DNA of 51,531 nt from Planctomycetota bacterium (GTDB lineage: Bacteria > Planctomycetota > UBA1135 > GCA-002686595): contig JAPLOE010000124.1 in assembly GCA_026692705.1 (NCBI GenBank), positions 1 through 51,531 of the forward strand, read 5' to 3'. The translations under genes were made by a program, and so were the position numbers. Under the pieces are notes generated by a model that was not told where the DNA came from, ran no database searches, and was given only the letters and a program-made list of their open reading frames with translations. Below are positions 10,129 to 51,531 of this stretch, in pieces (position 1 is the stretch's first letter; each line of letters opens with the position of its first letter).

Positions 10129-10171
10129 GTTCGCGGGCCGGTTCGACCGGCTCGTCACCTGCGCGCTTCGT

Positions 10172-30696: not shown

Positions 30697-30717
30697 GCCC
30701 CAGCCGAAGGAACCTCG

Positions 30718-31860
30718 ATGCACCCGCTCCTGCACGACCGCCGCCAGTTCATGGTCGGGGCTTCACTCGCCGCGCTCGCGCTGCCGGCGGCGGCGCGTGC
30801 GTCGCTGACGCAGTCGAGCGCGCACAAGACGCGCCACGTCGTGCTCGTCGCGTTCGCCGGCGGCGTGCGTTCGCGCGAGACCTTCGGCTCGCCGGGCAAC
30901 GTGCCGACGCTGGAGGCGATGGCGAAGGAAGGCGTGCTCTACAAGCGCGTGAAGTCGTCGAACCTCGGGCACTTCGGTGCGGCGCTCTCGATCTTCACGG
31001 GCATCAGCGAGGCGCGGGGCATCCGCGAGAACGCGCGCGGCACCGACCCGACGCTGTTCGAGTACGTGCGCAAGGACCTCGGGCTCGCCGCGAGCGACGT
31101 GTGGATCAGCACGTCCGGTGGCGCGCAGCAGACCAACTACAGCTACGGGCTGCACCCCGACTACGGTGCGCGCTACGGCGCGAACACGGTTGACGGCGAT
31201 GGCCTGTTCAATGCGGAATTCAAGTCGATCCTCGAGGCGTGGGGGCGGCCGAAGGCGCTGCCGCCGAGGGAAGCGGAGCTGTACGCGCGGCTGCGCGGCG
31301 CGATCGGCAACACGCCCGGTGGCGCGCTCAACAATCCGGAGAGCTCGGCGCGCATCGAGCAGTACATCCTGCAGGAATTGACGAGCGGAACGGCCGACAT
31401 CCGCGGCGCGAACGCGGCGGACGCCAAGGCGATCCGTGTCGCGCGCAACTTGCTCCTCCTGTTCAAGCCCAAGCTCGTCGGCATCGTGCTGCAGCAGGCG
31501 GACGCGGCCCACGGCTCGTTCAACGGCTACGTCGAGATCATCCGGCGCAACGACGAGGCGCTCGGCGACCTGTGGCGCGCCGTGCAGGCGGATCCCGAGC
31601 TGCGCGACTCGACCACGATCGTCGTGCTGCCGGAGTTCGGGCGCGACGCGGACCTCAACTCGCGGCGCGGGCTCGACCACGGCGACGGCTCGAACGATCT
31701 CGAGTACGTGACCGCGACCTGCTGGGGCCCGGATTTCGCGCGCAACCGCATCGTCGAGGACGACGTGCAGGCGATCGACGTGTGCCCGACGGTGTGCGAG
31801 CTGCTCGGAGCGAGCGCGGCGAAGGCACGCGGCAAGAAACTCCCCAGGTTGTTCGCGTAA
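30718..31860 (+). CDS. Tat-exported alkaline-phosphatase-fold protein (DUF1501-like)
   Basis: 380 residues with a twin-arginine signal, DRRQFMVGASLAALALPAAA, so it is exported folded. After the signal, HVVLVAFAGGVRS occupies the place of the first strand and metal loop. The C-terminal part has TIVVLPEFGRDAD and GLDHGDGSNDLE, which match the late metal-binding segments of phosphatase/DUF1501 proteins (aspartate and histidine). The catalytic serine or threonine is not evident, so it may be non-enzymatic. An AGGAA site precedes the ATG. It lies 21 bases after the DUF1549-like gene and 12 before the decahaem gene, suggesting one operon. Confidence 0.65.
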   Translation: MHPLLHDRRQFMVGASLAALALPAAARASLTQSSAHKTRHVVLVAFAGGVRSRETFGSPGNVPTLEAMAKEGVLYKRVKSSNLGHFGAALSIFTGISEARGIRENARGTDPTLFEYVRKDLGLAASDVWISTSGGAQQTNYSYGLHPDYGARYGANTVDGDGLFNAEFKSILEAWGRPKALPPREAELYARLRGAIGNTPGGALNNPESSARIEQYILQELTSGTADIRGANAADAKAIRVARNLLLLFKPKLVGIVLQQADAAHGSFNGYVEIIRRNDEALGDLWRAVQADPELRDSTTIVVLPEFGRDADLNSRRGLDHGDGSNDLEYVTATCWGPDFARNRIVEDDVQAIDVCPTVCELLGASAAKARGKKLPRLFA

Positions 31861-31872
31861 CGAGGTCGCGGA

Positions 31873-35364: not shown

Positions 35365-35663
35365 CGCAACTTTCGCCGCGTGCGAGCGCCGAGCAGCTGC
35401 TCGCGACCTTCGACGCCGACAAGGACCTGCTCCTGACCGCGCGGGAGCTCAAGAAGCGCCCCGACCTGTTCCTCGAGCTCGACGTCAACCGCGACGGCAG
35501 TGTCGATGCCACCGAGCTCGCGCAACGCATCCGCACCGTCGATGGTCAGGGTGTCGACGGCGTGCCGGACACGTTCCTCGATCGCTGGGATCTCGATGGC
35601 AACGGCAAGGTCGATCCCGTCGAGCTCCCCGCGGCCGCGAAGCGCGCGCTCGGGCTTCCATAG
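35292..35663 (+). pseudogene. EF-hand tail separated by frameshift from the decahaem gene
   Basis: In the reading frame other than that of the decahaem gene, bases 35292-35663 are open for 123 codons with no ATG or GTG near the start. They encode canonical EF-hand loops: DADKDLLLTARE, DVNRDGSVDATE and DLDGNGKVDPVE. They continue the calcium-loop region and directly follow its membrane helix. A one-base insertion or deletion near 35290-35300 would fuse them into a protein of about 1265 residues. Whether this is a real mutation or a read error cannot be told from sequence. Confidence 0.6.
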
Positions 35664-35717
35664 TCGCTCCGCGGCTCGGCTCGCTGCGCAGCGCAGGCTG
35701 TTCCTCGCGAAACGAAA

Positions 35718-35753
35718 GCGCCCCGCGCACTCGTCGCCGAGAGCGCGGGGCGC
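35718..35753. terminator. Strong bidirectional hairpin
   Basis: A perfect 11-base stem, GCGCCCCGCGC / GCGCGGGGCGC, with a 14-base loop lies between the EF-hand frame (ends 35663) and the convergent minus-strand gene (ends 35773). An A-rich stretch precedes it, giving T residues for the minus-strand transcript. Confidence 0.75.
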
Positions 35754-35772
35754 GAAGGAAGCGCGCGCGTCG

Positions 35773-37308
35773 CTAGTTGCGCAGCACGAACTCGAGGCCG
35801 CCGGTGAGATTCGTGTTCGCCGGGGCGCCGGAGTCGCGCGACCAGAACTGCGTGTTGACCGTCACGCCCGACACGAGCGCGGGATTGATGCCGCTCGCCG
35901 CGTAGGTGTTGAAGTCGAACGAGAACGAGCCGGTGCAGTCGTCACCCGTCGGCGTGCCGCCGCTCGCGAGCACGGGCGTGCGGCGCGGCGGGCCCTGGAC
36001 GCACATCGTGCCGCCGGAGAACGGCGTGTTGGCGCGGCCGAAGGTGCTGTAGAAGAGCAGGCCGGACTTCTGGTTGCGGATCGGCGCGGCGTTGACGATG
36101 AAGCCCGAGCCGTGGCTCGCGCTCGGCGTGCCGAGCGAGCTGATCACCGAGGTGCAGCCGAGCGAGTTGGTCTGCGCGCTGCAGTAGGCCTCGGAGGGCT
36201 CGAGCCAGCGGGCCTCGAGGTTGAAGCCGCGCTGCTGGCCGATCGGCAGGCCGGCGGCGGTCAGCTCGTCGAACAGGATCGTGACTTCGGTCGCGTGCTG
36301 GATCGAGCCGTCGCCGTTCGAGTCGAACATGCGGTAGAGGCGCTCGTTGTCCTGGGACTCGCCGGCGTACAGGGCGCCGTCGGCACCGCAGCGCACGTTC
36401 CAGATCAGGCTCGCCGCGGGCGCGACCCACCAGGCCGAGGACTCGCCCGGATCGATGGCGCCGTTGCTGTTGTTGTCGCGGAAGCGCCAGATGCGCTCGT
36501 TGCCCGTGTCGGCCATGAACCACGCGCCCGTCGCGTCCTGGTCGAAGCCCCAGTAGAAGGCCGAAGCCGGGAGCGTGGGCGGCAGGAACCAGGCCTTGAC
36601 CTCACCCGGCGCCTCGATCGTGCCGTTCTGGTTGAGGTCGTCGAGCTGGTACACGCCCTTGGCGAACAGACCCGTCGAGCCCACCTCCAGGTAGTAGACC
36701 TTGCCGTCGAGGCCGACGTGCACGTCCTGCGGGATCGACGCACCGGTGCCGCCGCCGAACGACACGTCGTGGCTCACGTAAAACTCGCGCGCCTCGTTCG
36801 CGTCCTGCGCGTCGCCGTCGTTGTTGAGGTCCTCGAGGCGCAGGATCGTGTCGCGTCCCGTCGAACCGCTCTGCTGGACCGCGACCCACAGCACGCCGTT
36901 GTGCCAGTCCATGCCGGCCGCGGACGGCATCGGGAGGAGCGTCACGCTCGAGGCCGGGTCGTAGTAGATCCACGTCTCGCCGGGCGTGTGCGCCGTGCCG
37001 TCGCCGTCGGTGTCCTTCATTCCGAGCACGAAGTCGCTCGACGAGTCGCACACGTACACGACGCCCGAGCGCGCCTGCACGATGCCGATGTTGTTGCTCA
37101 GCGGGAAGCCGCCGATCGTGTCGTCGTAGAACACCGTGCTCTCGAGCGCCCCGAGGTACTGCCCGTTGCCGTCGAGGTCGCGCAGGCGCGTGACGCGGTC
37201 GTTGTTGGAGTCGTTGACGAACACGTCGGGGCGCGGCCACCAGGGGGTCTGCGCGAAGGCCGGCGCGGCGAGCAGGAGCGGAGCGAAACGCAAGGCGGTG
37301 CGGTGCAT
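35773..37308 (-). CDS. Secreted beta-propeller-like protein with calcium loops and C-terminal cysteine module
   Basis: 511 residues with a signal peptide ending AFAQ. The body (residues ~20-370) looks like an NHL/PQQ-type beta-propeller whose blades carry aspartate/asparagine-rich loops such as RDLDGNGQYLGALE and DLNNDGDAQDANE. Each resembles a calcium-binding repeat. The C-terminal module starts near residue 375 (YCSAQTNSLGC), then QKSGLLFYS, MCVQGPPRRT and FWSRDSG. It is closest to the copy in the GHL10-type protein (11791-13779). Role unknown, probably extracellular. The gene lies between two convergent/divergent units and has its own upstream region of 200 bases. Confidence 0.78.
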   Translation of the reverse strand: MHRTALRFAPLLLAAPAFAQTPWWPRPDVFVNDSNNDRVTRLRDLDGNGQYLGALESTVFYDDTIGGFPLSNNIGIVQARSGVVYVCDSSSDFVLGMKDTDGDGTAHTPGETWIYYDPASSVTLLPMPSAAGMDWHNGVLWVAVQQSGSTGRDTILRLEDLNNDGDAQDANEAREFYVSHDVSFGGGTGASIPQDVHVGLDGKVYYLEVGSTGLFAKGVYQLDDLNQNGTIEAPGEVKAWFLPPTLPASAFYWGFDQDATGAWFMADTGNERIWRFRDNNSNGAIDPGESSAWWVAPAASLIWNVRCGADGALYAGESQDNERLYRMFDSNGDGSIQHATEVTILFDELTAAGLPIGQQRGFNLEARWLEPSEAYCSAQTNSLGCTSVISSLGTPSASHGSGFIVNAAPIRNQKSGLLFYSTFGRANTPFSGGTMCVQGPPRRTPVLASGGTPTGDDCTGSFSFDFNTYAASGINPALVSGVTVNTQFWSRDSGAPANTNLTGGLEFVLRN

Positions 37309-37509
37309 GAAGGTTCCTTTGGACTCGATGAGGGGCGTGGGCGAGCGCTCGAACAGGATAGACGCTGGCGGGCGTTTGCGGGGAGTGGCCTGCGGCGCCC
37401 AAGGCTATCCAAATGAGATCCAGTCTCAATACGGAGGACGGGAATCCTGCCGCTGGACCTCGAGTTCGCATTTGGCGATGGGCCGATTGCCCGCGCGCGT
37501 CGTGGGTGC

Positions 37510-39171
37510 TCAGCGGCTCGCCAGCGCCGACAGCGGCAGCTGCACGCGGAACGAGGCCCCACCCTCGGGCGCCGTTCCCAGCGTCAGCGTGCCGTCGTGG
37601 GCGGCCACGTTCTTGCGCGCGATCGGCAGGCCCAGGCCCGTGCCCCGCGTCTTGGTGGTCACGAACGGCTCGAAGATCTCCTCGCGCATCGAAGGCGGCA
37701 CGCCCGGGCCGTCGTCGCGCACCTCGAGCACGACCGCCTCCGGCTCGACCCGCGACTCGACGATCACGCGCGTGCCCTTGCCGTCGACGGCCTGCAGCGC
37801 GTTCGAGACGAGGTTCTCGATCACCTGGCTCAGCATGCGCTCGTCGATCGCGAGCACGAGCTCGTCGGGCACGCGCACGTCGACCGCGAGGCTGGGGAAC
37901 ACGCGGCGCAGCGGGTCGACCACGTCGCGCACGATCGCGCGCAGCGAGTGCGGTGCCAGCTTGGGCGGCACCGGCCGCGAGAAGCGCAGCATGTCGATCA
38001 CGGTCTGGTCGACGCGCCGCACCTCCTCGCCGATCTCGTCGAAGATCTCGCGGTGGGGGTGGCTCGCCGGGAGCTCGCGCGAGAGCACCTGCACGGCGGC
38101 GTAGATGCCCGCCAGCGGGTTCTTGATCTCGTGCGCGATCTTGGCCGACATCTCGCCGACCGCCGCCAGCGTGCGCGAGCGCGCGAGCTCGGCCTCGGTG
38201 CGGCGCTGCTCGGTGATGTCCTTCAGGATCGCGGTCGAGCCGACCACGCGCCCACGCGCGTCGCGCAGCGGCGTGCGCGTCAGGCTGCACCAGCGCTCGA
38301 CGCCGTCCTTGCGGATGCGGCGCGTGATGAAGTTGTTCACCGAGCGGCCCTGGTCGAGCTCGCGGCGCATGCGCTCGAGCTCGCCCGATTCCAGCACGTC
38401 CTGCGGCACGATGCGGCCGATGCGGCGCCCGACGACCTCGTCGGGAGCGAACTGGAACATGCGCTCGGCGCCGCGGTTCCAGAAGCGCACGACGTCCTCG
38501 TTGTCGATCAGGATCACCGCGTCGTCGGTGGTCTCGAGCATGTCGTCGAGCGACACCTCCGCGCCGGCCAGCGAGGCTCCGACGGCGCCGAGGAAGAAGC
38601 GCGGGCTGCCCGGCGGGGCGTGGCGCGGCCCTTCGACGTCCGTGAACTCGTGCGAGGGCCGCACGTCGAAGCGGCAGCCGCCCGGCGCGAGGCAGCTCGA
38701 GCAGCCGATCGGGGTACTGGTGAGGTCGAGGCCTGAAACGCGGCTCAGGAAGCTCGACAGCAGGCCGGCGGTGAAGCCGCTGGCGGCGTGGGTGGGCTGG
38801 CGGCGCGCGCAGCGGCCGAGCTCGGTCTCGAAGGGGTTCGTGAGCGTGCCCGCGAGGTGGAACTGGCCCGCAGCGGCATCGGTCGTGAGCGAGCGGATCT
38901 CGAGCGAACCGTAGCCCCGCACGCTGAAGCGCGCAAACCCTGCGGCGATGCGCTCGGCCAGCGCGGGCCCCTCGGGCAGTTCCGCGGCGAGCTCGCGCCC
39001 GACGCGCAGTCCGACCTCGAACAGCACGCGGTCCGCGGTCTCTTCCCCGGCCGTGGCGTGGACCGTCGCCTCGAGGGCGCGCAGTTCCTCGCGGGTGGGG
39101 ACGGCGAGCGCCGGATCGCTACGCCCGTTGTCGCCCAAAAGCGCGGAGGAAGTCCCGGACGGGGTGGCCAT
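37510..39171 (-). CDS. V4R-PAS sensor histidine kinase, NtrB-like
   Basis: 553 residues with no membrane helix, so cytoplasmic. Residues ~95-175 are a V4R domain, the zinc-linked small-molecule-sensing fold of XylR/DmpR-type regulators: cysteines in GRCARRQP and GCSSCLAPGGCRFDV match its pattern. A PAS domain follows (~205-320; DDAVILIDNEDVVRFWNRGA). The HisKA box is IAHEIKNPLAG with phospho-acceptor H347. The ATPase domain has N box ENLVSNALQAVDG, DDGPGVPP and GTGLGLPIARK. It is divergent from an NtrC-type regulator gene, which is its likely partner. The ligand is unknown; V4R suggests a small aromatic, bilin-like or similar hydrophobic molecule. Confidence 0.88.
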   Translation of the reverse strand: MATPSGTSSALLGDNGRSDPALAVPTREELRALEATVHATAGEETADRVLFEVGLRVGRELAAELPEGPALAERIAAGFARFSVRGYGSLEIRSLTTDAAAGQFHLAGTLTNPFETELGRCARRQPTHAASGFTAGLLSSFLSRVSGLDLTSTPIGCSSCLAPGGCRFDVRPSHEFTDVEGPRHAPPGSPRFFLGAVGASLAGAEVSLDDMLETTDDAVILIDNEDVVRFWNRGAERMFQFAPDEVVGRRIGRIVPQDVLESGELERMRRELDQGRSVNNFITRRIRKDGVERWCSLTRTPLRDARGRVVGSTAILKDITEQRRTEAELARSRTLAAVGEMSAKIAHEIKNPLAGIYAAVQVLSRELPASHPHREIFDEIGEEVRRVDQTVIDMLRFSRPVPPKLAPHSLRAIVRDVVDPLRRVFPSLAVDVRVPDELVLAIDERMLSQVIENLVSNALQAVDGKGTRVIVESRVEPEAVVLEVRDDGPGVPPSMREEIFEPFVTTKTRGTGLGLPIARKNVAAHDGTLTLGTAPEGGASFRVQLPLSALASR

Positions 39172-39241
39172 GGGGGGATCCTATGCGTCCTCTGGAATCC
39201 CGCGGATGGGCAGGGGTGCGTAGCGCATGGGGGACGAGGTC

Positions 39242-39257
39242 GGGCATACGTTGTGCA
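39242..39257 (+). promoter_or_regulatory. Possible sigma-54 promoter of the NtrC-type regulator gene
   Basis: GGGCAT-N6-GTGCA spaces a GG and a GC by 10 bases, matching about 9 of 12 positions of the -24/-12 consensus. It lies 95 bases upstream of the regulator start, in the 180-base divergent region with the kinase gene. It would imply autoregulation. Weaker than the site at 46746. Confidence 0.3.
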
Positions 39258-39351
39258 AGGACAAGGTCCTGAGCGCCGCCGGTCGGTCCGGAGCCACGGC
39301 GCGGGGGGACGGTCCCTTCCGCTCCGCGAACTCTTCCGCACTCCACGCGCC

Positions 39352-40770
<1,419 letters not shown>

Positions 40771-40922: not shown

Positions 40923-42464
40923 ATGCAGCACCCGTCGCTAGAGCGTCGACGCCCGCACGTGGCCCTCCCGGCCGCGATCGGTTCCGCCGCCGCGTTCCTG
41001 TGTGCCTGCGCCGCAGCTCCGAAGGCCCCGCCTCCGGAACCTGGGACGCCCCAACCTGCCGCCGAGAGCCCCGCGGCCAACGGAGTGGCGCCCGCGGCCG
41101 CGACGCCGGCGGGTTCGCCCGCTGGTGCGCAGGGCACGACGCAGGGAGCCGCGCTCACCGCCGACGAAGGTTCGGCGACCGCGGCCCCGTCCGGTGCGGC
41201 TGCGCCGAAGAAGGAGTCCGACGAGCTCGCCATCCACGGCAGCCTGTCGAGCCGCTACCGCGCGCGCACCAGCGGCGGAGCGCACGACCAGGACTTCTAC
41301 GAGACGCTCGTGCTCGACGTCGGCGACTCGCGCAAGGACGGCGTCACCGCGCACGTGATGGGGCGCCTCGCCGGCGACCTCGACGGCCAGAGCGACCGCG
41401 ACGGCCAGTACGTGTACCCCAACCTCGCCGACGCCTGGAGCGATCCGGTGCAGGGCCTCTTGTACGAGGCGTGGGTCGACGTGCACGACGCGCCGAAGCT
41501 CTCGGCGCTGCGGGTCGGCCGCCAGAGCGACTTCCAGACGCCGGTGTTCGCCTACTTCGACGGCATCAGCCTCGCGACCAACTCCGCGGGAGCGTGGAAC
41601 TGGCGCGGTGGCGCCTACGGCGGCGTTCCGGTGCGCCTGTACGAGCAGTCGGCGACCGGCGACGAGCTGTTCGGGCTGTGGGGCGAAGCCAGGCCCTGGA
41701 CCGGCGGCCGCGTGCGCCTCGACTGGATGCACATCGAGGACAAGGACCGCTTCGCCGCGAACAACAACGACCTGCTCGGTGCGTCGCTGACCCAGCGGCT
41801 CGACGAGCGCTCGCGCGTCGACGTCAACTACACGCGCCTCGAGGAAACCGACCGCGACGTGCGCGTGCGCGGCACGTGGAGCGATCCGGCGAGCGACCTG
41901 ACCGTGCAGGCGAGCTGGTACCGCCTGCTCGAGGTTCAGAAGAGCTTCGCGCTCGAATTCGACCCGTTCTTCGAGTCGCTGCAGGACTTCCAGCCCTACG
42001 ACCAGTTCCGCGTGCAGGCCTCGAAGGGCTTCGGCGAGCACTGGCGCGCCGACGGCGGGCTCGACCTGCGCCGGCTCGATTCCAGCTCGTCGGAAGGCGC
42101 CTACAACCACGACTTCGATCGCGGTTGGCTGTCGCTCGTGATGCTCGACCTCGCCGCGGTGAAGGGGCTCACGCTGACGCTCACCGGCGAGGTGTGGTCG
42201 AGCTCCGATCAGGACGTCGAGACCTGGGGCGCCGACCTGAGCCGCAAGTTCGACGACGGCCTGACGCTCTCGGGCGGCTCGAGCTACGCGCTCTACCGTT
42301 ACGATTTCTTCCTCAACCGCGAGCGCGACGACGTGCGCTTGTGGTACTTGCGCATGCGCAAGAAACTCGGTGACAGTTGGTCGCTGGAAGGCTCCTATGA
42401 CTTCCAGGACGATTCCGAGGACTCCTACCACGTTCTGACCCTGGGGGCCGTATGGCGCTTCTGA
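40923..42464 (+). CDS. Outer-membrane beta-barrel, putative MtrB-like conduit porin
   Basis: 513 residues. The N-terminus has a signal region ending LCACAAAPK with a lipobox-like site, then ~80 residues of proline/alanine/glycine-rich linker. From residue ~100 to the end it is an alternating-hydrophobicity beta-barrel with many aromatic girdle residues (about 18-22 strands by eye), ending in the terminal phenylalanine typical of outer-membrane proteins (GAVWRF). MtrB-type porins are larger and have no conserved catalytic motif, so assignment rests on barrel character and context: the 13-haem gene overlaps it by 13 bases and the decahaem gene follows. It may form a porin sheath for electron-transferring cytochromes. 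It could be a plain carbohydrate porin. Confidence 0.6.
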   Translation: MQHPSLERRRPHVALPAAIGSAAAFLCACAAAPKAPPPEPGTPQPAAESPAANGVAPAAATPAGSPAGAQGTTQGAALTADEGSATAAPSGAAAPKKESDELAIHGSLSSRYRARTSGGAHDQDFYETLVLDVGDSRKDGVTAHVMGRLAGDLDGQSDRDGQYVYPNLADAWSDPVQGLLYEAWVDVHDAPKLSALRVGRQSDFQTPVFAYFDGISLATNSAGAWNWRGGAYGGVPVRLYEQSATGDELFGLWGEARPWTGGRVRLDWMHIEDKDRFAANNNDLLGASLTQRLDERSRVDVNYTRLEETDRDVRVRGTWSDPASDLTVQASWYRLLEVQKSFALEFDPFFESLQDFQPYDQFRVQASKGFGEHWRADGGLDLRRLDSSSSEGAYNHDFDRGWLSLVMLDLAAVKGLTLTLTGEVWSSSDQDVETWGADLSRKFDDGLTLSGGSSYALYRYDFFLNRERDDVRLWYLRMRKKLGDSWSLEGSYDFQDDSEDSYHVLTLGAVWRF

Positions 42465-43477
42465 GATCGATCCAGCGCGGCTTCAGCGCCAAGTTCGCGG
42501 CAGTCGGGCTCGCACTCTCGACGCTCGCGGGTTGCATGATCTACGAGGCGCTCGTGCCGACGCCGCCGCGCTTCGCGTTCAGCCACGCCAAGCACGTCAC
42601 CGACGAGGGCATGGCCTGCGAGGACTGCCACTTGCCGAGCGAGTCCGGGGGCGCGCCCACGATCCCCGTGCTGGCGCAGTGCAACCTGTGCCACACCGAG
42701 ATCGACGCGGAAAAACCCGAGGAAAAGCGCATCGCGCAGTTCTTCGAGGGCACCAGGATGAAGGCCGCGCACCGCGGCGCCGTCGGCGGCGACGTCAAGT
42801 TCCCGCACGAGCGCCACACCGAGGCGGGGCTGGATTGCTCGGCCTGCCACGCGGGCTTCGAGGCGAATGCCGACGTGACGTCGGTGCCGCGCGCGAGCAT
42901 GGCGAGCTGCACGGACTGCCACGTCGAGCGCAAGGTGGCGAACGAGTGCTCGACCTGCCACACGACGCTGCGCGAGGACGTCAAGCCCGCGACGCACAGC
43001 GCGGTGTGGATGCGCCAGCACGGCTCGACCGTGCGCGGCGGATCCGAGGCGACGGCCGACTCGTGCTCGATCTGCCATCAGGAGTCGAGCTGCACGACCT
43101 GCCACCTCGCGACGCAGCCGCAGAACCACACCGACTACTGGCGCCTGCGTGGGCACGGCATCAGCGCGAGCCTCGATCGCGCGAGCTGCGCCACGTGCCA
43201 CCGCGACGACTCCTGCGTGCGCTGCCACCAGGAGAGCCGGCCGCAGAGCCACTCCGGCAACTGGGGCGGGACGACCAGCCGCCACTGCACGGGCTGCCAC
43301 TTCCCGATCGAGGGCGAAGGCTGCTCGGTCTGCCACAACGGGACGCCGAGCCACCAGCTCGCGACGCCCAAGCCGGCCGACCACACCGCCGGCATGAACT
43401 GCCGCATGTGCCACGGGGCCGGCCAGCCGCTGCCGCACGTCGACAACGGCGACAGCTGCAACCTCTGCCACCTCTGA
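42452..43477 (+). CDS. Thirteen-haem c-type cytochrome lipoprotein (MtrA-like role)
   Basis: 341 residues with a lipoprotein signal, LSTLAGC at residue 28. Thirteen CXXCH motifs are present (CEDCH, CNLCH, CSACH, CTDCH, CSTCH, CSICH, CTTCH, CATCH, CVRCH, CTGCH, CSVCH, CRMCH, CNLCH). Spacing is dense, about one haem per 25 residues. Distal histidines are plentiful in the spacers (for example HFPIEG and PHERHTEAG-type segments). The 13-base overlap with the barrel gene indicates translational coupling and probable complex formation. In porin-cytochrome conduits, MtrA or the Geobacter OmaB-type partner carries electrons through the barrel. The haem number exceeds MtrA's ten; no close match to OmaB or DmsE is claimed. 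Confidence 0.8.
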   Translation: MALLRSIQRGFSAKFAAVGLALSTLAGCMIYEALVPTPPRFAFSHAKHVTDEGMACEDCHLPSESGGAPTIPVLAQCNLCHTEIDAEKPEEKRIAQFFEGTRMKAAHRGAVGGDVKFPHERHTEAGLDCSACHAGFEANADVTSVPRASMASCTDCHVERKVANECSTCHTTLREDVKPATHSAVWMRQHGSTVRGGSEATADSCSICHQESSCTTCHLATQPQNHTDYWRLRGHGISASLDRASCATCHRDDSCVRCHQESRPQSHSGNWGGTTSRHCTGCHFPIEGEGCSVCHNGTPSHQLATPKPADHTAGMNCRMCHGAGQPLPHVDNGDSCNLCHL

Positions 43478-43495
43478 TCGAGCTGGCTCGGAAGG

Positions 43496-43536
43496 CCCCG
43501 GTTCCTCGTCCGCGAGGCGCCGGGGTCCTCTGTTTT
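43496..43536 (+). terminator. Hairpin with T-tract after the 13-haem gene
   Basis: CCCCGG/CCGGGG and CCTCG/CGAGG stems separated by a 2-base internal loop, then TCCTCTGTTTT. It lies 19 bases past the 13-haem stop and separates it from the decahaem gene, which then needs its own promoter. Confidence 0.65.
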
Positions 43537-43619
43537 GCGGCCGTCGCGCTGCTTGCGCCTGCAGCGGAGAGCGTGCGCCCTATCGCTCCGCCGCGTACGT
43601 ACTGCGGACCATCTGTCCC

Positions 43620-43635
43620 CGGGTCGAATCTTGCG
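43620..43635 (+). promoter_or_regulatory. Possible sigma-54 promoter of the decahaem gene
   Basis: CGGGTCGAATCTTGCG has a GG and a TTGC spaced by the sigma-54 rule (GG-N10-GC), about 8 of 12 consensus positions. It lies 48 bases upstream of the ATG and just upstream of a GGAGG ribosome site at 43669-43673. Together with the near-perfect site at 46746 it suggests that the cytochromes share sigma-54 control. Confidence 0.4.
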
Positions 43636-43682
43636 ACAAGTGGCTCGGACTCTTGTCCCCGCCCTTCTGGAGGCCCTCGACC

Positions 43683-46568
43683 ATGACGCTGCTGAACAAT
43701 TCCCATCGCCGTCCCGCGCTCGGCGCGTACTTCTTCGCGGTTCTGCTCTCGACGAGCTTCGTCGCCTGCTCCGACGGTGACAACGGCGCGCAAGGACCGC
43801 AGGGTCCCGGCGGTCCGACGCCTCCGACGAGCACCCAGGTCGAGCCGGGTGACGAGACCCCGGGCATGGTGATCGATCTGCTGTCGCTCTCGGGCGGCTC
43901 GGGCCCCGGCGGCTCGTTCCGCGTCGGCGACCGCGTCGCGGTGCGCTTCACGCTCGAGAAGTCGAACGGCGACGCGTGGGACTTCAGCGAGCTCAACTAC
44001 GGCCGCATCATGATCAGCGGCCCGACCGACAACTACCAGCGCGTGATCCCCGAGAAGACCAACGTGCTCACGGCGTCGGTCGACAACGGCGACGGCAGCT
44101 GGACCTACACGTTCGCGGACGCGATCCCCGCCGTGTACGCGGCGCCCTACAACGACACCGCGAGTTTCGGCCCCGAGGACGGCGAGCTCACCGGTCAGTC
44201 GCTGCTCAACGGCACCTACTCGGTCGGTCTGTACTTCGGCTGGAACTTCACGGTCGAGGGCACGTCCTACCGGCTCTCCGACAACGCCGTGCAGGACTTC
44301 GTGATCGGCACCGGCGCGCTCGAGCCGCGCGAGGTCGTCGCGCAGGACAACTGCAACCAGTGCCACTCGAGCCTGCGCGCGCACGGCGAGCTGCGCCGCG
44401 ACGTCAAGCTGTGCGTGCTGTGCCACACCGCGGGCTCGGAAGACCGCAACAACGCCAACGTGGCGGGCGGCACCCCGGGCGTCTCGATGGACTTCCGCGT
44501 GATGGTCCACAAGATCCACAACGGCGCGCACCTCCCGAGCGTGCTCGGCGTGAGCACCAACCCCGACGGCTCGCGCAACTACGCCGCGACGGCGTCGCCC
44601 TACCAGGCGGTGGGCTTCGGCGACTCGATCATCGACTTCTCCGACATCAACTTCCCCGTCTGGCCGAGCCTGAACATCGCCATGCCGCGCGACCAGGGCT
44701 ACACCGCGCTCTCGACGCAGAACAAGCTGCTCGAGGACACGATGCGCTTCGGCGTCGTCGCCTGCGAGAAGTGCCACGGTGACCCCGACGGCGCCGGCCC
44801 GCTCACGGGCCCGGCCCAGGGCGACCTGTTCAAGGCCCAGCCGACGCGGCAGGCCTGCGGCGCGTGCCACGACGACATCGTCTGGGGTCGCCCGTACACG
44901 GCGAACGGCCAGACCATGGGCGCGCAGGCCGACAACGCCAACTGCAAGCTGTGCCACGACACGGCGGGCAACGCGCTCGCGGTCGAGGACGCGCACACCC
45001 ACCCGCTCTACGACGGCACGTTCAACGCCGGCCTCAACGCCGACATCTCGAGCGTGACGGAGTCGGGCACCAACAACGCCGACGGCACGATCGACGTGGG
45101 TGAGAAGGTCGCGATCACGTTCACCCTGACCGACGACGCCGGTACGGCGGTGAGCCCCTCGGTCTCGTCGACCTACAGCGTCGTGGTGTCGGGCCCGACC
45201 TCGAACATCAACGCGCTGCTCAGCACGTCGATCCCGCAGGCCAAGCTGCAGGGCTCGCAGCCCTACACGGTCAACCTGCCGCAGCTGAACATCCTCGAGT
45301 ACGTCGGGGACGCCACGGGTGGCATCGGTGACGTGTTCACGAGCGCGATGACGCCGCACTGGAACATCAGCGGCGCGACGACGACGGTGTTCGCGCGGAC
45401 CGGCACGACCGGCGGCGCGAGCGTGCTCTCGAGCGCGGCCGGCGCACTGTCGAACTACATCGACGTCGCCAGCGCGACGAACTTCGCCAAGGACGACTAC
45501 CTCGTGATCGAGGACGGCGTCGTGGGCAAGGAAGAGTACCTCCGCATCCAGTGGGTCGACGGCAACCGCCTGTGGTTCGGTGCGCTCGGCACGACCTACC
45601 AGCCCGGCACGCGCGTCGCGCACGCCGCGGGCGCCGCGGTGGCGGAAGTGCAGCTCACCACCAAGGCCGTGACGGTCGACTACACGCTGAACGCGACGAC
45701 GGGCCAGGTCACGGAAGTGACCGACTTCGGCGCGGGCAACGCGGTGCTCGTCAGCTACACGACCGACTTCGTGATGCCGGCGGTCTACCCGCTGAGCTTC
45801 AACGCCGGTCCGACGGTCGACGAGACCTCGGGCGAGTGGACGGGCAAGTCGATCGTCGACGGCACGTACATGGTCGGCATCTGGGGCGCGCGCACGCTGA
45901 CGCTCAACCTCTTCGGCGAGAGCAACAGCTACCGCGGCACGTCCTTCACGTCGGCGAAGAACTTCCTGGTCGGCTCGGCCGCCACGGAAGTGCCCTACGG
46001 CGCGGTGCCGGACGCCAACTCCTGCTACCAGTGCCACAGCGACATGCTGTTCCACGGTGGTGGCCGCCGCGGCTTCGACGCGTGCATCCTCTGCCACGGT
46101 GCCTCCGGCGCCGAGGACCGCCCGCGCATGGTCGCCCCGAACGCGCCCGAGACCGCCGGCGTCGCGATCTCGTTCCGCCAGATGCTCCACAAGATCCACA
46201 TGGGTGAGGAGCTCGCCAACGCGTCGACCTACACGGTCAACGGCTTCAGCTCCAACGCGTACCCCAACAACTTCACGTCGTACCAGTACGGCGAGGTCGT
46301 GTTCCCGGCGCTGCCGGGTGCGGCCGCCAACTGCACCATGTGCCACGGCGCGAGCGAGCTGTGGAAGGCGCCCGCCGACCGCAACCACCCGACCGCGCAG
46401 ACGCTGCCGGTGCGCGAGTGGGGCAACACGTGCGGCGCCTGCCACGACTCCAACTCCGCCCAGGCGCACATCGCTGTGCAGACCTCGGGCTCGGGCTTCG
46501 AGTCCTGCGCGGTCTGCCACGGCGAAGGCAAGGACTGGGCGGTCGAGAAGATGCACAAGACCTACTAG
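43683..46568 (+). CDS. OmcA/MtrC-family decahaem outer-surface cytochrome
   Basis: 961 residues. The ATG at 43683, with GGAGG 10 bases upstream, was chosen over an in-frame TTG upstream. The N-terminus is a lipoprotein-like signal (STSFVACSD) followed by a gly/pro collagen-like stretch (GAQGPQGPGGP), typical of the family. Ten CXXCH motifs form two groups of five: CNQCH, CVLCH, CEKCH, CGACH, CKLCH at ~224-420, and CYQCH, CILCH, CTMCH, CGACH, CAVCH at ~780-945. Beta-rich domains lie before each group (residues ~55-215 and ~440-770), giving the split-domain plan of MtrC and OmcA. Conserved MVHKIHNGAH and MLHKIHMGEE segments follow the second haem in each half. Likely terminal reductase to minerals or electrodes at the cell surface. 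Confidence 0.88.
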   Translation: MTLLNNSHRRPALGAYFFAVLLSTSFVACSDGDNGAQGPQGPGGPTPPTSTQVEPGDETPGMVIDLLSLSGGSGPGGSFRVGDRVAVRFTLEKSNGDAWDFSELNYGRIMISGPTDNYQRVIPEKTNVLTASVDNGDGSWTYTFADAIPAVYAAPYNDTASFGPEDGELTGQSLLNGTYSVGLYFGWNFTVEGTSYRLSDNAVQDFVIGTGALEPREVVAQDNCNQCHSSLRAHGELRRDVKLCVLCHTAGSEDRNNANVAGGTPGVSMDFRVMVHKIHNGAHLPSVLGVSTNPDGSRNYAATASPYQAVGFGDSIIDFSDINFPVWPSLNIAMPRDQGYTALSTQNKLLEDTMRFGVVACEKCHGDPDGAGPLTGPAQGDLFKAQPTRQACGACHDDIVWGRPYTANGQTMGAQADNANCKLCHDTAGNALAVEDAHTHPLYDGTFNAGLNADISSVTESGTNNADGTIDVGEKVAITFTLTDDAGTAVSPSVSSTYSVVVSGPTSNINALLSTSIPQAKLQGSQPYTVNLPQLNILEYVGDATGGIGDVFTSAMTPHWNISGATTTVFARTGTTGGASVLSSAAGALSNYIDVASATNFAKDDYLVIEDGVVGKEEYLRIQWVDGNRLWFGALGTTYQPGTRVAHAAGAAVAEVQLTTKAVTVDYTLNATTGQVTEVTDFGAGNAVLVSYTTDFVMPAVYPLSFNAGPTVDETSGEWTGKSIVDGTYMVGIWGARTLTLNLFGESNSYRGTSFTSAKNFLVGSAATEVPYGAVPDANSCYQCHSDMLFHGGGRRGFDACILCHGASGAEDRPRMVAPNAPETAGVAISFRQMLHKIHMGEELANASTYTVNGFSSNAYPNNFTSYQYGEVVFPALPGAAANCTMCHGASELWKAPADRNHPTAQTLPVREWGNTCGACHDSNSAQAHIAVQTSGSGFESCAVCHGEGKDWAVEKMHKTY

Positions 46569-46761: not shown

Positions 46762-46809
46762 ACTCGTTCGGTGGGCCACCCCCAGCGAACCCCCAACCTC
46801 CCCCTCGCC

Positions 46810-47652
46810 ATGGAACGCACCCTCAGCTTCAACGAGATCCGCCGCGCGCTCGCAGGCTTCGACGAGCCGCGTTCGGTGGCCGCCTTCGAGCGCCGCGCGC
46901 GCGCCGAGATGGCCGTGCTGTGTGGCATCGCGGGGATTGCGCTGCTGAGCGTGCTGCTCTCGCTGCGGTCGATGCGGGACCTGCCGGAAGGCTCGGAAAT
47001 CGCGTTTGCGGCGGCTCCGGCGGTCGAGCTCACGCTCGTCGGCGAACGCCGCGAGGCTCCGCAGGAAGCGTTCGCGAACCTTGCCAGCGCGCCGGTGAGC
47101 GCCGAGCGCGAAGTGGCCAGCGAGAGCGAAGTTGAAGCGCTCGAGCCCGCGCCGCTCGCCCGACCCGCGAAGGTCCAAGCGGCCGACGCGCGCGGCGAAG
47201 CGAGCTGGTTCGCGGAATATTCCGCGGTGGCGAGTGCGGAAGAACTCGCACTTGCGCTCAATGCGGCCTTCGGGAGCGCCGGAACCGACGCCCAGCGCCT
47301 GGCGGCGCTGCGAGTTTCCTACGAACGCGAACTTCCCGGCACCTCCGCGCTGTTCGAGCGCGCGGCCGGGTTCGGCGAGCCGGTCGGCCACGCGGCCGTG
47401 GCTTGGCTCGAGCGCCGTGCGTCGCGCGAGGCGCGCGCCCGCGAGCTGCTCGAGTCGCTGACCCTCTCGTCCACGCTGCGCGACGAGACCCGCGCGGCGA
47501 GCGCCCGTGCGCTGATCGCCTCGGTCGACGACGGAGAGGCCGCGCGGATCGTGGCGCGCCTCGGTCGCGACCGTTCGGACCTCGTCTACGAGAACGCGCG
47601 CGCGGCGCTTGCCGACCGCACGCGGGAACGCGCCCACGAGGAACTGCGCTAG
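46810..47652 (+). CDS. Single-pass membrane protein of unknown function
   Basis: 280 residues from the ATG at 46810; there is no Shine-Dalgarno but a C-rich leader. A cytoplasmic N-terminal ~35 residues precede one membrane helix (VLCGIAGIALLSVLLSL). A low-complexity glu/ala/pro-rich linker follows, then a helical alpha-solenoid-like domain (residues ~140-280; repeated ALRVSYERELP, RALIASVDDGE segments) that looks like HEAT-type repeats. No cysteine or haem motif is present except one Cys in the helix. It is the first gene after the sigma-54 promoter, preceding the tetrahaem cytochrome by 76 bases, so a role in assembly or anchoring of the electron-transfer proteins is plausible. No family was recognised. 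Confidence 0.7.
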   Translation: MERTLSFNEIRRALAGFDEPRSVAAFERRARAEMAVLCGIAGIALLSVLLSLRSMRDLPEGSEIAFAAAPAVELTLVGERREAPQEAFANLASAPVSAEREVASESEVEALEPAPLARPAKVQAADARGEASWFAEYSAVASAEELALALNAAFGSAGTDAQRLAALRVSYERELPGTSALFERAAGFGEPVGHAAVAWLERRASREARARELLESLTLSSTLRDETRAASARALIASVDDGEAARIVARLGRDRSDLVYENARAALADRTRERAHEELR

Positions 47653-47728: not shown

Positions 47729-48433
47729 ATGAAGAACTCGAAGCTCGGTTTGACCCGCATCTGCCTTGCAGCGGCCGTCGCACTCGTCGGCTTTGCCGTC
47801 GTCGGACTGTCGTCGGACGGCAGCGCGGCCCAACCGGCCCAGGCCAAGGTCAACAAGTACGTCGGTGCGGCGAAGTGCAAGAACTGCCACAGCTCCGCGG
47901 AGACCGGTGACCAGCACGGCACGTGGGCGAAGATGAAGCACAGCCACGCCTTCGAGGCGCTGGGGACCGAGGAAGCGAAGAAGCTCGGCGCCGAGAAGGG
48001 CGTCACCGATCCGCAGAAGGACGACAAGTGCCTGAAGTGCCACATCACGGGCTTCGGCGTGCCGGCCGAGCAGCTCGACAAGAAGTTCGACACCAAGCTC
48101 GGCGTGCAGTGCGAGTCCTGCCACGGCCCGGGCGAGGCGCACATGAAGGCGCGCATGCAGGCCGCCGCGAGCGAGGACCCGGCGAAGAAGGCCCTCGGCG
48201 AGGGCGAGATCATCGGCAAGCCCGAGCAGAAGCTGTGCGTGACCTGCCACAACACGGAAAGCCCGAGCTACAAGCCGTTCTGCTACTACAAGCGCGTCGC
48301 CGAGACCCGCCACCTGAACCCCAAGAAGGAACGCAGCGAGGCGGACAAGAAGGCGCTCGCCAAGAAGTGCGGCTGCGCCGACAAGTGCCCGACGCCCGAG
48401 TGCGCCGACGGCAAGTGCGGCATCGACGGCTAG
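47729..48433 (+). CDS. Tetrahaem c-type cytochrome with cysteine-rich tail
   Basis: 234 residues. Ribosome site GGAG lies 8 bases before the ATG. A signal peptide ends near SSDGSAAQ. Four CXXCH motifs (CKNCH, CLKCH, CESCH, CVTCH) fall at about residues 50-175. The KNCHSS and ESCHGPGEAH segments resemble the cytochrome c554/NrfB-like periplasmic carriers. After the last haem there is a FCYYKR segment, a lysine-rich helix and a tail with five cysteines (KCGCADKCPTPECADGKCG) that has no haem spacing and could bind a metal or form disulfides. It probably shuttles electrons between the Rieske/b complex and the outer-membrane conduit. Confidence 0.8.
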   Translation: MKNSKLGLTRICLAAAVALVGFAVVGLSSDGSAAQPAQAKVNKYVGAAKCKNCHSSAETGDQHGTWAKMKHSHAFEALGTEEAKKLGAEKGVTDPQKDDKCLKCHITGFGVPAEQLDKKFDTKLGVQCESCHGPGEAHMKARMQAAASEDPAKKALGEGEIIGKPEQKLCVTCHNTESPSYKPFCYYKRVAETRHLNPKKERSEADKKALAKKCGCADKCPTPECADGKCGIDG

Positions 48434-48547: not shown

Positions 48548-49198
48548 ATGATCCTCGTTCTCGATCCCAAGGCTCCGCAGGAAATGGTCGACTCCGTGGT
48601 GCGCATCGTGACGCAGCTCGGATGGAAGACCGAGGTCTCGCGCGGCGACGACCAGACCGTGATCGGCCTGTCGGGCGACGGTGATCCCGAGGCGCTCGAC
48701 AAGGCGCTGGCCGAGCGCGGGGACATCGACATCGTGCCGATCCTCACGCGCCAGCAGTACCAGCGCCTGCGCATCCGACGGCGCATGATGACCGGCCTCG
48801 TCGGTGGGCTCGGTTTGCTCACGGCGATGGGAGCCGCGGCGCCGGTCGCCGGCTTCCTGCTGCCGCCCAAGGGCATGCTCGGCGAGCGCGACCTCGTCAA
48901 GGTCGGCACTGCGCAGGAGATGGGCGAGCGCGCGTCGAAGCCGATCACGCTGTTCGGCCGCACGATGCTCCTGATCCGCGGCGCCAACGGGCGCTTCTAC
49001 GCGACCAGCGCGATCTGCACGCACATGAGCGTGTGCCACCTCGAGTGGAAGGAAGAGCGCAACCTGCTCGTCTGCCCCTGCCACGGCGGCGAGTTCGACG
49101 TGTACGGCAACGTGGTCAAGGGCCCGCCGTCCGTTCCGCTGCAGACCTTCCCGGTCGAGGTCTCCGGCGACGACCTGTTACTGCGGCGGGAGGTCTGA
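48548..49198 (+). CDS. Rieske iron-sulfur protein with N-terminal ferredoxin-like (DAHP-synthase-type) domain
   Basis: 216 residues. Residues ~1-75 resemble the ferredoxin-like N-terminal domain of DAHP synthases (MILVLDPKAP, VSRGDDQTVIGL). A membrane helix follows (~80-105; GLVGGLGLLTAMGAAAPVAG). The Rieske domain (~110-216) has ligands C157 and H159 in CTHMSVC and C176 and H179 in CPCHGG. The disulfide cysteine in the first loop is at +6 rather than +5 from C157, one residue longer than CTHLGC. It is the first gene of the b-complex run and lies 3 bases before the cytochrome b gene. It probably accepts electrons from quinol at the outer face of the inner membrane. Confidence 0.87.
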   Translation: MILVLDPKAPQEMVDSVVRIVTQLGWKTEVSRGDDQTVIGLSGDGDPEALDKALAERGDIDIVPILTRQQYQRLRIRRRMMTGLVGGLGLLTAMGAAAPVAGFLLPPKGMLGERDLVKVGTAQEMGERASKPITLFGRTMLLIRGANGRFYATSAICTHMSVCHLEWKEERNLLVCPCHGGEFDVYGNVVKGPPSVPLQTFPVEVSGDDLLLRREV

Positions 49199-49201: not shown

Positions 49202-49837
49202 ATGGCCGAGCACGAGCAAGGCATCCCCGACATGCTGAAGGCGGCGCTGCGCTCGCCGATTCCGCACGAGCTGCGCGGCGACCTCGGACTGGGCGCGCTC
49301 GTGATCGCGCTGTTCCTGCTGCAGGTCTTCACCGGCATCCTGATGTCGCTGTACTACCAGCCGTCGCCGGACGCCGTCGCGGAGAGCGTGCAGTACATCA
49401 TGCGCGACGTGAGCTGGGGCTGGCTCGTGCGCGGGCTGCACCACTGGTCGTCGTCGGCGCTGATCGTCGCCTGCCTCGTGCACCTCGCGCGCGCGGTGCT
49501 GGCGGCGCGCTACCGCGGCCGCGCGTGGTACTGGTACCTCGGCGTGCTCGCGACGATGCTCGTGATCCTCTCGGCCTTCACGGGCGAGCTGCTCACCTGG
49601 GACAACGACGCCTACTGGCGCGTGCGCGCGATCCTCGCCGACGTCGAGACGATTCCGCTGGTCGGCCCCGAGCTCGCGGCCATCGTGCGCGGCGGCTCGG
49701 AGGTCAGTGCGACCACGCTCAGCCGCACGTACTCCGCGCACTCGCTGTTCGTGCCGTGGATGGTGTGGATGCTCCTGATCTCGAGCTTCGGTCTCATCGT
49801 GCGCGACGTGCGTCGCGGGAAGGCAGGCGGCTCATGA
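49202..49837 (+). CDS. Cytochrome b6-like protein, one haem ligand missing
   Basis: 211 residues with four membrane helices, the b6-type N-terminal half of cytochrome b. GGGAGG lies about 9 bases upstream of the ATG. Helix B holds GLHHWSSSALIVACLVH with H80 and H94 spaced 14 apart. The cd-region contains FTGELLTWD, matching the Qo-site GYSLPWD pattern, and the following segment PLVGPELAAIVRGGSEV is typical of the family. Helix D has H180 (SAHSLFVPWMV), but the partner normally 14-15 residues later is Ser194/Ser195, so the inner haem would lack one axial histidine. The C-terminal half with PEWY is absent. Confidence 0.87.
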   Translation: MAEHEQGIPDMLKAALRSPIPHELRGDLGLGALVIALFLLQVFTGILMSLYYQPSPDAVAESVQYIMRDVSWGWLVRGLHHWSSSALIVACLVHLARAVLAARYRGRAWYWYLGVLATMLVILSAFTGELLTWDNDAYWRVRAILADVETIPLVGPELAAIVRGGSEVSATTLSRTYSAHSLFVPWMVWMLLISSFGLIVRDVRRGKAGGS

Positions 49838-50250
49838 TCGTCGTGCTCGAGCGGGGCGCGAGTCCCGAGCAGGTCGAGGAAGTCGCGAGCAAGCTGCGGG
49901 CCCGCGGGCTCGAGGTGCGCGCGCTGCGCGCCGGCGGCAAGCCGGTGCTGCACGTGACGGCCGGAGCGGGTCGCAAGGCGCGCAAGGTGCTGCGCGACGA
50001 TCCCGTCGAGGGACTCGTGGCGATGGACGGCCCGCGCATCCGGCGCGAGGGCCATCGGCTGTTCCCGTTCCACGTCCTCAACTGGTCGGCGTGGTGGATC
50101 CTCGTGCTGGGCGCGATCGTGCTGCTCGCGGGCCAGTTCCCCACCGGCGTCGGGCGCCTGATCGACCCCGGCTCGCGCGCCCCGGTGCTCGGAGCGGTCG
50201 CCGTGTTCGTGGCCGTGCTCGCGTGGCTCGCCTTCAAGGAGCTGCCGTGA
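49834..50250 (+). CDS. Small membrane subunit with ferredoxin-like domain, possible subunit IV remnant
   Basis: 138 residues; the ATG overlaps the cytochrome b stop by 4 bases. Residues 1-~70 repeat the ferredoxin-like pattern of the Rieske N-terminus (MIVVLERGASPEQVEEV). Two membrane helices follow (~85-105 and ~113-134). LFPFHVLNWSAWW resembles the entry of cytochrome b/subunit IV C-terminal halves, but the PEWY quinone-site motif is absent. It may be a shortened subunit IV that completes the b-type complex. No known family was recognised beyond that. Confidence 0.6.
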   Translation: MIVVLERGASPEQVEEVASKLRARGLEVRALRAGGKPVLHVTAGAGRKARKVLRDDPVEGLVAMDGPRIRREGHRLFPFHVLNWSAWWILVLGAIVLLAGQFPTGVGRLIDPGSRAPVLGAVAVFVAVLAWLAFKELP

Positions 50251-51500
50251 TGCTGCGCAATCTCGTTCTCCTCGTCGCCGCTGCGCTCGCGCCGCGTGCG
50301 CTCGCCTTCCAGGCGCCGACGGCCCAGCCCCGCACGGCGAACTGCATCACTTGCCACGGTGCGCAGGAGCTGCAGGCGCGCGTGAGCGTGCACACGCGCG
50401 CCAACGTCGACTGCATCACCTGCCACGGCGGGAATCCCGGCGAAATCGACGTCGCGCGCGCGCACGGCGCGCAGATGCGCTCGCTGAAGGACCCGCGCCA
50501 GGCCGTCGACACGTGTGGCACGTGCCACTCCGACGTCGACCGCCTGCGCAACTTCGGGCTCCGCACCGACCAGCTCTCGCTGTACTGGACGAGCCAGCAC
50601 GGCGCGCAGCTCGCGCTCAAGAACGACGCCAACGTCGCGACCTGCGTCTCCTGCCACGGCAGCCACGGCGTGCTCGCGCCGTCCGATCCGCTCTCGCCCG
50701 TGCATCCGCAGAAGCAGGTCGAGACCTGCGGGCGCTGCCACGGCGACGAGAAGCTGATGGCGCAATACGGGCTGCCGGCGACGCAGCCGGAAGCGTACCG
50801 CGGCTCGGTGCACGGTCAGGCGCTGCTCGACGACGCTCACCCGGCCGCACCTTCGTGCACGGACTGCCACGGCTCGCACGGGGCGCTGCCGCCGCGTGTC
50901 GGCGAGGTCGAGCAGGTCTGCGGCCAGTGCCACTCGGTCGTGCAGGACTACTACGACAGGAGCCCGCACGCGAAGGCGACGGGCGCGACGGGTTCGGTGC
51001 AGTGCACGGCCTGCCACTCCAACCACGGCGTGCAGAAGCCGACGATCGAGCGCTTCACCGGCGACGCCGAAGGCCACTGCGGCGCGTGCCACACGGAGCC
51101 CGACGACAAGGCGCTGGCGGTCGGCCGCACGCTGCACGACGACGTCCAGAAGCTCGTCAGCACGATCCACGACGCCGAGCTCGCGGTCGACAAGGCCGGC
51201 GAGCGGGGCCTGTTCCTCGGCATCGAGCGCGGGTACCTCGACGACGCGCGCGGGCTGCTCGTGCGCGCGCGCACGATGACGCACACGCTCGATCCCGCGG
51301 CGCTCGATGAGGTGCTCAACCGCGGCCAGGGCATGGTCAACAAGACGCTCGAGGATCTCGCGACGAAGAACCGCATCTTCCGCGACCGCAAGATCTTCAC
51401 GGCGATCTTCTTCGCGGTGTCCTTGGCGTTCGCGATCGCGCTCGCGATGCACGCGCGCGAGCTCGCCGGACGCCGCAAGCGACTGGGGAGGACGCAATGA
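50250..51500 (+). CDS. Membrane-anchored nonahaem c-type cytochrome
   Basis: 416 residues; the ATG overlaps the previous stop by one base. A signal peptide ends near RALAFQA. Nine CXXCH motifs (CITCH, CITCH, CGTCH, CVSCH, CGRCH, CTDCH, CGQCH, CTACH, CGACH) span residues ~32-290, each followed by HG- or NHG-type distal-ligand segments (CHGSHGV, CHSNHGV). A helical region and one membrane helix (IFTAIFFAVSLAFAIALAM) follow near the C-terminus, leaving a short basic tail. The pattern resembles the multihaem subunits of Geobacter Cbc-type and other alternative quinol-oxidising complexes. It probably takes electrons from the Rieske/b subunits to periplasmic carriers. Confidence 0.85.
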   Translation: MLRNLVLLVAAALAPRALAFQAPTAQPRTANCITCHGAQELQARVSVHTRANVDCITCHGGNPGEIDVARAHGAQMRSLKDPRQAVDTCGTCHSDVDRLRNFGLRTDQLSLYWTSQHGAQLALKNDANVATCVSCHGSHGVLAPSDPLSPVHPQKQVETCGRCHGDEKLMAQYGLPATQPEAYRGSVHGQALLDDAHPAAPSCTDCHGSHGALPPRVGEVEQVCGQCHSVVQDYYDRSPHAKATGATGSVQCTACHSNHGVQKPTIERFTGDAEGHCGACHTEPDDKALAVGRTLHDDVQKLVSTIHDAELAVDKAGERGLFLGIERGYLDDARGLLVRARTMTHTLDPAALDEVLNRGQGMVNKTLEDLATKNRIFRDRKIFTAIFFAVSLAFAIALAMHARELAGRRKRLGRTQ

Positions 51501-51531
51501 AGCGGCAGGGCTGGTTCGCCGGAGTGTGGGA
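51497..51531 (+). CDS. Start of a further gene, cut by window edge
   Basis: An ATG overlaps the nonahaem stop by 4 bases (the same coupling as its upstream neighbours) and encodes MKRQGWFAGVW before the window ends. The basic N-terminus could begin a membrane or exported protein. Its position makes it a likely further subunit of the same complex. Confidence 0.5.
   Translation, partial: MKRQGWFAGVW

Follow-up and report, generated by a model that had tools for sequence, protein, structure and literature searches.

The Mtr and Pcc conduits of extracellular electron transfer have been described as independently evolved and unrelated. The Pcc class, as set out by Shi et al. 2014 (PMC4245776), comprises porins of 18–22 predicted strands with periplasmic partners of 5–14 haems and usually an outer-membrane cytochrome, and the same study predicted a two-gene pcc cluster in Candidatus Kuenenia, consisting of a porin and a 14-haem cytochrome. 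Electrode-dependent anammox has also been reported (PMC7188810). For MtrCAB, one survey lists the system in three phyla, the planctomycetes not being among them (PMC8805035), and a single planctomycete MAG from ferromanganese nodules has been noted to have mtrC (PMC10367259). The part of the literature spanned by our search contained no description of a hybrid between a Pcc core and an OmcA/MtrC-type surface cytochrome.

The locus considered here has the makings of such a hybrid. It lies in a stretch of 51,531 nucleotides (the window) that is a complete contig of a 4.95-Mb MAG in 348 contigs, and consists of three consecutive genes on the forward strand: a putative outer-membrane barrel (40923–42464, ATG at 40923, 513 aa), a 13-haem lipoprotein (42452–43477, ATG at 42452, 341 aa, with exactly 13 CXXCH motifs and the lipobox LAGC) and a decahaem lipoprotein (43683–46568, 961 aa, 10 CXXCH), whose open frame begins with a TTG at 43653 and whose likely start is the ATG at 43683. 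This is the arrangement given in a preliminary description of the sequence, whose coordinates hold apart from the start codon of the third gene. The barrel and 13-haem genes overlap by 13 nt (42452–42464, forward strand; ATGGCGCTTCTGA), an overlap also present in close relatives, and translational coupling of the two is probable. Compared with relatives, all three genes have an excess of changes at third codon positions, and therefore look to be under protein-level selection. The host is confirmed as a planctomycete, as had been suspected from the DNA: the 13-haem protein has an 87% match in a genome of the same genus (G004 and JABWBL010000206.1, which we took as one record), a planctomycete MAG named “Planctomycetaceae bacterium isolate MAG_29”. 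Contamination is unlikely, since the neighbourhood upstream of the three genes (window positions ~25987–40770) is syntenic in a further genome, G002.

Searches of Pfam, NCBIfam and the PDB give no significant match for the barrel, and a profile of its family (32 homologues) finds nothing in the PDB at E-values up to 10. AlphaFold2, given an alignment of nine homologues, predicts a disordered Pro/Ala-rich N-terminal linker followed by 22 beta strands, most of them with good local confidence; 18–28 strands had been expected. Standard geometry for n = 22 and an assumed shear of ~24 would give an estimated backbone diameter of ~40 Å and a lumen of ~30 Å. When used as a Foldseek query the model retrieves only generic porins at an rmsd of ~8–14 Å, the highest query TM-score in the list being 0.47 for the 24-strand usher FimD, and no MtrB is found among the top 50 matches. 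The nearest structures by E-value include porins of the OprD/Occ type and AlgE. Porin_4 is matched by 4 of the 32 relatives (best E-value 3e-6) and not by the barrel in the window. The preliminary description had allowed that the barrel might align with ordinary sugar porins; the family has no sequence match to solved ones. In the closest relatives a lipobox-like cysteine closes the signal peptide of the barrel (40923–41050 in the window) and a long Pro/Ala linker comes after it, while more distant barrels seem to have ordinary signal peptides.

Homologues of the 13-haem protein were aligned (35 sequences) at identities of 34–87%. Outside the haem motifs, 12 histidines are kept in 27 of 27 thirteen-haem members and a thirteenth in 78%; one such conserved histidine per haem motif is expected to be the second haem ligand. 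These homologues and histidines, with the third-position excess in all three genes, show that the locus is not a chance pattern. A lipobox-type cysteine ends the signal peptide in all 31 of the 31 members with at least 13 haems. Members with 9 haems, found in other phyla, retain exactly the last 9 of the 13 conserved extra histidines, align only to about residues 157–340 of the 13-haem protein, and adjoin a barrel homologue wherever the contig extends far enough. Residues ~157–341, the C-terminal 9-haem core, are probably the trans-membrane wire lying inside the barrel, and we infer residues ~40–156 to be a periplasmic extension. The four-haem module at the N-terminus resembles QrcA, ActA of alternative complex III, and cytochrome c7. 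A fold model computed free of haem is usable only in this ActA/c7-like part, which structurally matches ActA of alternative complex III; the C-terminal half is of low confidence, with pLDDT ~35–55 over residues 190–300.

For the decahaem protein the assignment made in the preliminary description, to the OmcA/MtrC family, is borne out. It scores 277.9 bits (E = 1.8e-82) against TIGR03507, for which the curated cut-off is 209.3 bits, its haems are split 5+5 across two MtrC/MtrF II/IV domains (PF22113), and it matches MtrF (E = 6e-11) and OmcA (E = 5e-9) in the PDB. The only cysteine outside the haem motifs is cysteine 29 of the lipobox (VAC), and at 961 aa the protein exceeds the solved Shewanella proteins in size. 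The OmcA-like N-terminal domain PF22112 reaches 10.4 bits in this protein; the genome has no match to it and, as no control genome matched either, we did not use it as evidence. Judged by sequence, the protein is a genuine member of the family. A second decahaem protein of the OmcA/MtrC family, with no adjoining barrel, is encoded elsewhere in the same genome (contig C59, ~15363–17786; locus L127, 9785–12796).

The relatives of the first two genes lead to the anammox bacteria. One anammox genome (G183, a single contig of 4.41 Mb) is very probably that of Kuenenia MBR1, and it carries exactly the barrel and multihaem pair, in the same order; the multihaem protein there has 14 haems, and the neighbourhood lacks a surface cytochrome. 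Taking this genome as Kuenenia, the barrel family profile matches it with an E-value of ~1e-99. A similar picture emerges in the anammox order, where in most of the 26 genomes with a barrel match the profile reaches E-values of ~1e-90 to 1e-100 with the partner adjacent, and the 13–18-haem partners are homologous to that in the window (E-values from 1e-72 to 1e-126 for full-length neighbours). By sequence, then, the barrel is a member of the Kuenenia-type Pcc porin family, which has received little study. Since G183 carries the homologous pair, the core in the window is of a family in which the anammox member had previously been suspected of being a conduit, and because the anammox pair matches the cluster of 2014, the phylum already had a predicted conduit. 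It had been stated that such conduits are not established in this phylum; this is not supported, given the pcc cluster predicted for Kuenenia by Shi et al. 2014 (PMC4245776) and the homologous pair in anammox genomes.

We scanned 84,980 genomes with the 13-haem alignment and obtained 36 loci, from Planctomycetota (including Candidatus Anammoxibacter), Hydrogenedentota, Elusimicrobia and deltaproteobacterial lineages; two loci (L057 and L061) belong to a phylum of only 46 genomes. The barrel adjoins the multihaem gene in all but one of the loci found by way of the multihaem protein (36 of 37), the exception lying at a contig end. As these first loci had been found through the multihaem protein, a search with the barrel alone was also made, and it finds the barrel in 26 of 59 genomes of the Anammoxibacter order and in 32 of 149 sampled planctomycete genomes. 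Among the loci fetched from these two barrel-first samples, a 9–18-haem homologue lies beside nearly every clear barrel match uncut by a contig end. Pairwise distances for the barrel and its multihaem partner are correlated with r = 0.94 over 69 pairs, a value to which shared ancestry contributes.

The same sample of 149 planctomycete genomes contains no MtrB/PioB protein above cut-off. An OmcA/MtrC protein above cut-off is present in 15, of which 12 also have the barrel, adjacent in most, compared to 20 with the barrel among the 134 genomes without an above-cut-off OmcA/MtrC (Fisher p = 4e-7, a significance inflated by phylogenetic relatedness). In other planctomycete families the place of the decahaem protein is taken by an 8-haem protein, in some cases with PKD domains, or is empty. 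On balance, we favour a family of conduits distributed across Planctomycetota, with further members in Hydrogenedentota, Elusimicrobia and deltaproteobacterial lineages. Its fixed elements would be the 22-strand barrel and the 9-haem core; different versions of the periplasmic extension (0, 4 or more extra haems) and of the surface cytochrome (OmcA/MtrC, PKD-type 8-haem or none) could replace one another, and OmcA/MtrC would work without MtrAB.

Several of these loci have features of their own. Large 8-haem proteins of ~700–1140 aa, two of them with PKD domains, are encoded at or near the pair in L057 (6609–9554), L052 (11029–13110) and L051 (11299–14724), where OmcA/MtrC is absent; these are possible alternative surface cytochromes. 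Within L051, a planctomycete cluster, another 8-haem protein (9699–11105) has a weak match to hydrazine dehydrogenase (79 bits, cut-off 900). An open frame with 46 CXXCH motifs lies beside an oppositely oriented barrel homologue in Elusimicrobia (L064, 9188–12427, forward strand), and one Candidatus Anammoxibacter genome (G166; L069, L074 and L076) has three barrel and multihaem pairs, with 17, 18 and 13 haems. The phylum is not devoid of canonical MtrAB-type pairs: in another planctomycete family (L066) an MtrB/PioB-like barrel lies beside a 10-haem MtrA/DmsE protein above cut-off (1420–3753 and 3757–5007, reverse strand).

Directly 5′ of the barrel is an NtrC-type sigma-54 response regulator (38788–40770, forward strand) with a receiver domain and the motifs GESGVGKG and GAFTDA, the true start of which is probably several hundred nt inside this open frame. 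It occupies the same place in L023, L024 and L032–L036, and is accompanied in several relatives by a histidine kinase. The sensor histidine kinase of the window (37510–39171, reverse strand, with H-box and ATP-lid motifs) is divergent from the regulator, and its homologues adjoin the NtrC gene in L023 and L024. With an NtrC-type neighbour, a sigma-54 promoter would be expected 5′ of the barrel; the search before the barrel gave no exact site and fewer loose matches than chance, and searches for sigma-70 promoters and terminators gave nothing above shuffled sequences. Also upstream is a 10-haem cytochrome with LVIVD repeats (31873–35361, forward strand), conserved in G002, which is ExtM-like at 215.6 bits against NF040943, under the cut-off of 800.

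Downstream of the decahaem gene, all on the forward strand, is a putative membrane-anchored protein (46807–47652), which has no Pfam or NCBIfam match and is conserved in place in L021, L022, L024 and L025. It is followed by a periplasmic tetrahaem cytochrome, c554-like (47729–48433, PF13435), found in the same place in relatives, by a Rieske iron-sulfur protein with an N-terminal DAHP-FXD-like domain and a TM anchor (48548–49198; PF00355, PF18152), and by a short b6/ExtP-like cytochrome b (49202–49837, PF00033), which scores 140.6 bits against ExtP (NF040969), under the cut-off of 290. Next are a small membrane protein with a weakly FXD-like start (49834–50250), conserved in place in relatives and a possible subunit of the Rieske/cytochrome b complex, and a 9-haem cytochrome with a C-terminal hydrophobic segment (50250–51500, 9 CXXCH, PF09699/PF14522). 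The last gene, probably for a 17-haem NapC/NirT-type cytochrome (51497–51531), is cut by the end of the window 35 nt in; the product of the gene at this point in relatives has 17 haems and a NapC/NirT domain, and the remainder appears to lie on contig C147 of the same assembly (G000). In relatives the 17-haem gene is followed by that of a multihaem protein that also has a b-type membrane domain and is reminiscent of Geobacter CbcL. A quinol-to-surface chain made up of the Rieske/cytochrome b, tetrahaem, nonahaem and 17-haem proteins is plausible.

Taken together, a porin-cytochrome conduit, as first put forward in the preliminary description, is the best reading of the locus, considering the adjacency of barrel and multihaem genes, the conservation of haem ligands, the 22-strand model and the OmcA/MtrC membership of the decahaem protein. 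We regard it as highly likely that the barrel serves as a conduit porin with the C-terminal 9-haem core inside it, and that electrons from a quinol-oxidising module pass by this route to an OmcA/MtrC surface cytochrome. A complex of this kind, its topology, the electron transfer and its direction are what we infer from the locus. In the inner membrane, electron exchange with quinol would be the task of the Rieske/cytochrome b complex and, in relatives, also of the 17-haem NapC-type and multihaem/b-type proteins, and the tetra- and nona-haem cytochromes would carry electrons over the periplasm to the 13-haem lipoprotein. The C-terminal 9-haem core of this lipoprotein, inside the 22-strand barrel, would pass them through the outer membrane, where the surface decahaem protein would give them to, or take them from, an extracellular partner, possibly Fe/Mn oxides, humics or another cell. 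That the haem wire fits in the barrel is an assumption, because a barrel of 22 strands is narrower than MtrB.

Other explanations have to be weighed against this one. An assembly or binning artefact could in principle have joined unrelated genes, the source genome being a MAG in 348 contigs. However, the same order recurs in several genomes that other projects have recovered from the genus and family, together with the upstream synteny, and an order shared across the genomes of independent projects refutes this reading, to which we give practically no weight. Acquisition of a canonical Shewanella-type MtrCAB by a planctomycete would account for a surface cytochrome scoring 277.9 bits on TIGR03507 and for a set of barrel, periplasmic cytochrome and decahaem protein that resembles mtrCAB. 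Yet the barrel in the window has no match to the MtrB/PioB model (TIGR03509) at E-values up to 10, just one of its 32 relatives matches that model (E = 0.047), and hhalign against planctomycete MtrB-like proteins gives a probability of 5.8%; its 22 predicted strands compare with 26–28 in MtrB. The 13-haem protein, a lipoprotein with 13 haems and not 10, scores 7.5 bits on the MtrA/DmsE model (TIGR03508) against a cut-off of 192. A core of MtrB and MtrA is thus rejected by the curated models, by the profile against the PDB and by hhalign, which refutes a canonical MtrCAB for the barrel and periplasmic protein and makes this origin for the locus very improbable. The preliminary description had anticipated that both proteins differ from their Mtr counterparts, which their strand and haem numbers and their failure in the curated models confirm; its label of “Mtr/OmcA-like” fits the surface cytochrome and not the core, which is of the Kuenenia Pcc family.

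A further alternative is that the barrel is an ordinary porin that lets a solute through, an oxyanion such as selenite, with the cytochromes acting as a periplasmic or surface reductase, in line with what has been proposed for ExtI and the Geobacter ext cluster that surrounds it. The ExtP-like cytochrome b, the ExtM-like 10-haem protein nearby and the OprD/Occ-type and AlgE porins among the nearest Foldseek structures all point in this direction, but the ext resemblances are far below their cut-offs and the barrel matches no ext porin or sugar-porin model. Moreover, the barrel is accompanied by one particular multihaem protein, a partner for which a solute porin would have no use, and we consider this explanation improbable. 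More weight is due to the same conduit run inward, in which Fe(II), a mineral, an electrode or a partner cell would be the source of the electrons that reach the quinone pool or oxidases. Complexes of Rieske protein and cytochrome b of the bc type can accept electrons in reverse; against this, the role associated with most OmcA/MtrC-type surface cytochromes is outward reduction, and several independent types of quinol dehydrogenase follow in relatives, as they do in metal reducers. Such conduits work both ways in principle, with PioAB/MtoAB as the precedent (PMC8805035). Inward flow is a serious though lesser possibility, and for the proposed conduit we lean modestly towards outward flow.

If the proposed conduit is real, extracellular electron transfer would be far commoner in Planctomycetota than one would suppose from the anammox case alone. 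Gene order and phylum-wide co-occurrence link an Mtr-type surface cytochrome to a Pcc-type core, and, as OmcA/MtrC would be working without MtrAB, the surface module would be swappable between independently evolved conduits. The 9-haem homologues would mark the membrane-crossing part of the wire, and the structural question could therefore be tested directly on a small protein pair.

Of the systems described so far, the Geobacter extHIJKLMNOPQS cluster (selenite/tellurite; PMC5877670) resembles the window in grouping a porin, multihaem cytochromes, a Rieske protein and a short cytochrome b; it differs in that the ExtP- and ExtM-like proteins of the window are below curated cut-offs, the barrel is without a match, and an OmcA/MtrC-type decahaem protein is not described there. 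Geobacter OmbB-OmaB-OmcB has the same three-part plan, whereas the surface cytochrome here is of the OmcA/MtrC type and not OmcB. Shewanella MtrCAB/MtrDEF shares both the plan of barrel, inner wire and surface cytochrome and the 5+5 OmcA/MtrC decahaem protein itself; however, MtrB has 26–28 strands compared to 22 and no detectable sequence relation to the barrel here, and the inner wire differs from MtrA in its 13 haems, its lipid anchor and the lack of homology beyond haem-motif segments. The broad Pcc description of Shi et al. 2014, compared at the level of the class, fits the locus, with its 22 modelled strands, 13 haems and clustered decahaem lipoprotein. Closest is the Kuenenia Pcc itself, with a homologous barrel and a homologous multihaem lipoprotein in the same order; it has 14 haems where the window has 13 and no outer-membrane cytochrome gene beside the pair, whereas the window has an OmcA/MtrC decahaem protein and a quinol module 3′ of it. 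What is new, in our best reading, is thus the combination of a Kuenenia-type Pcc core with an Mtr-type surface cytochrome.
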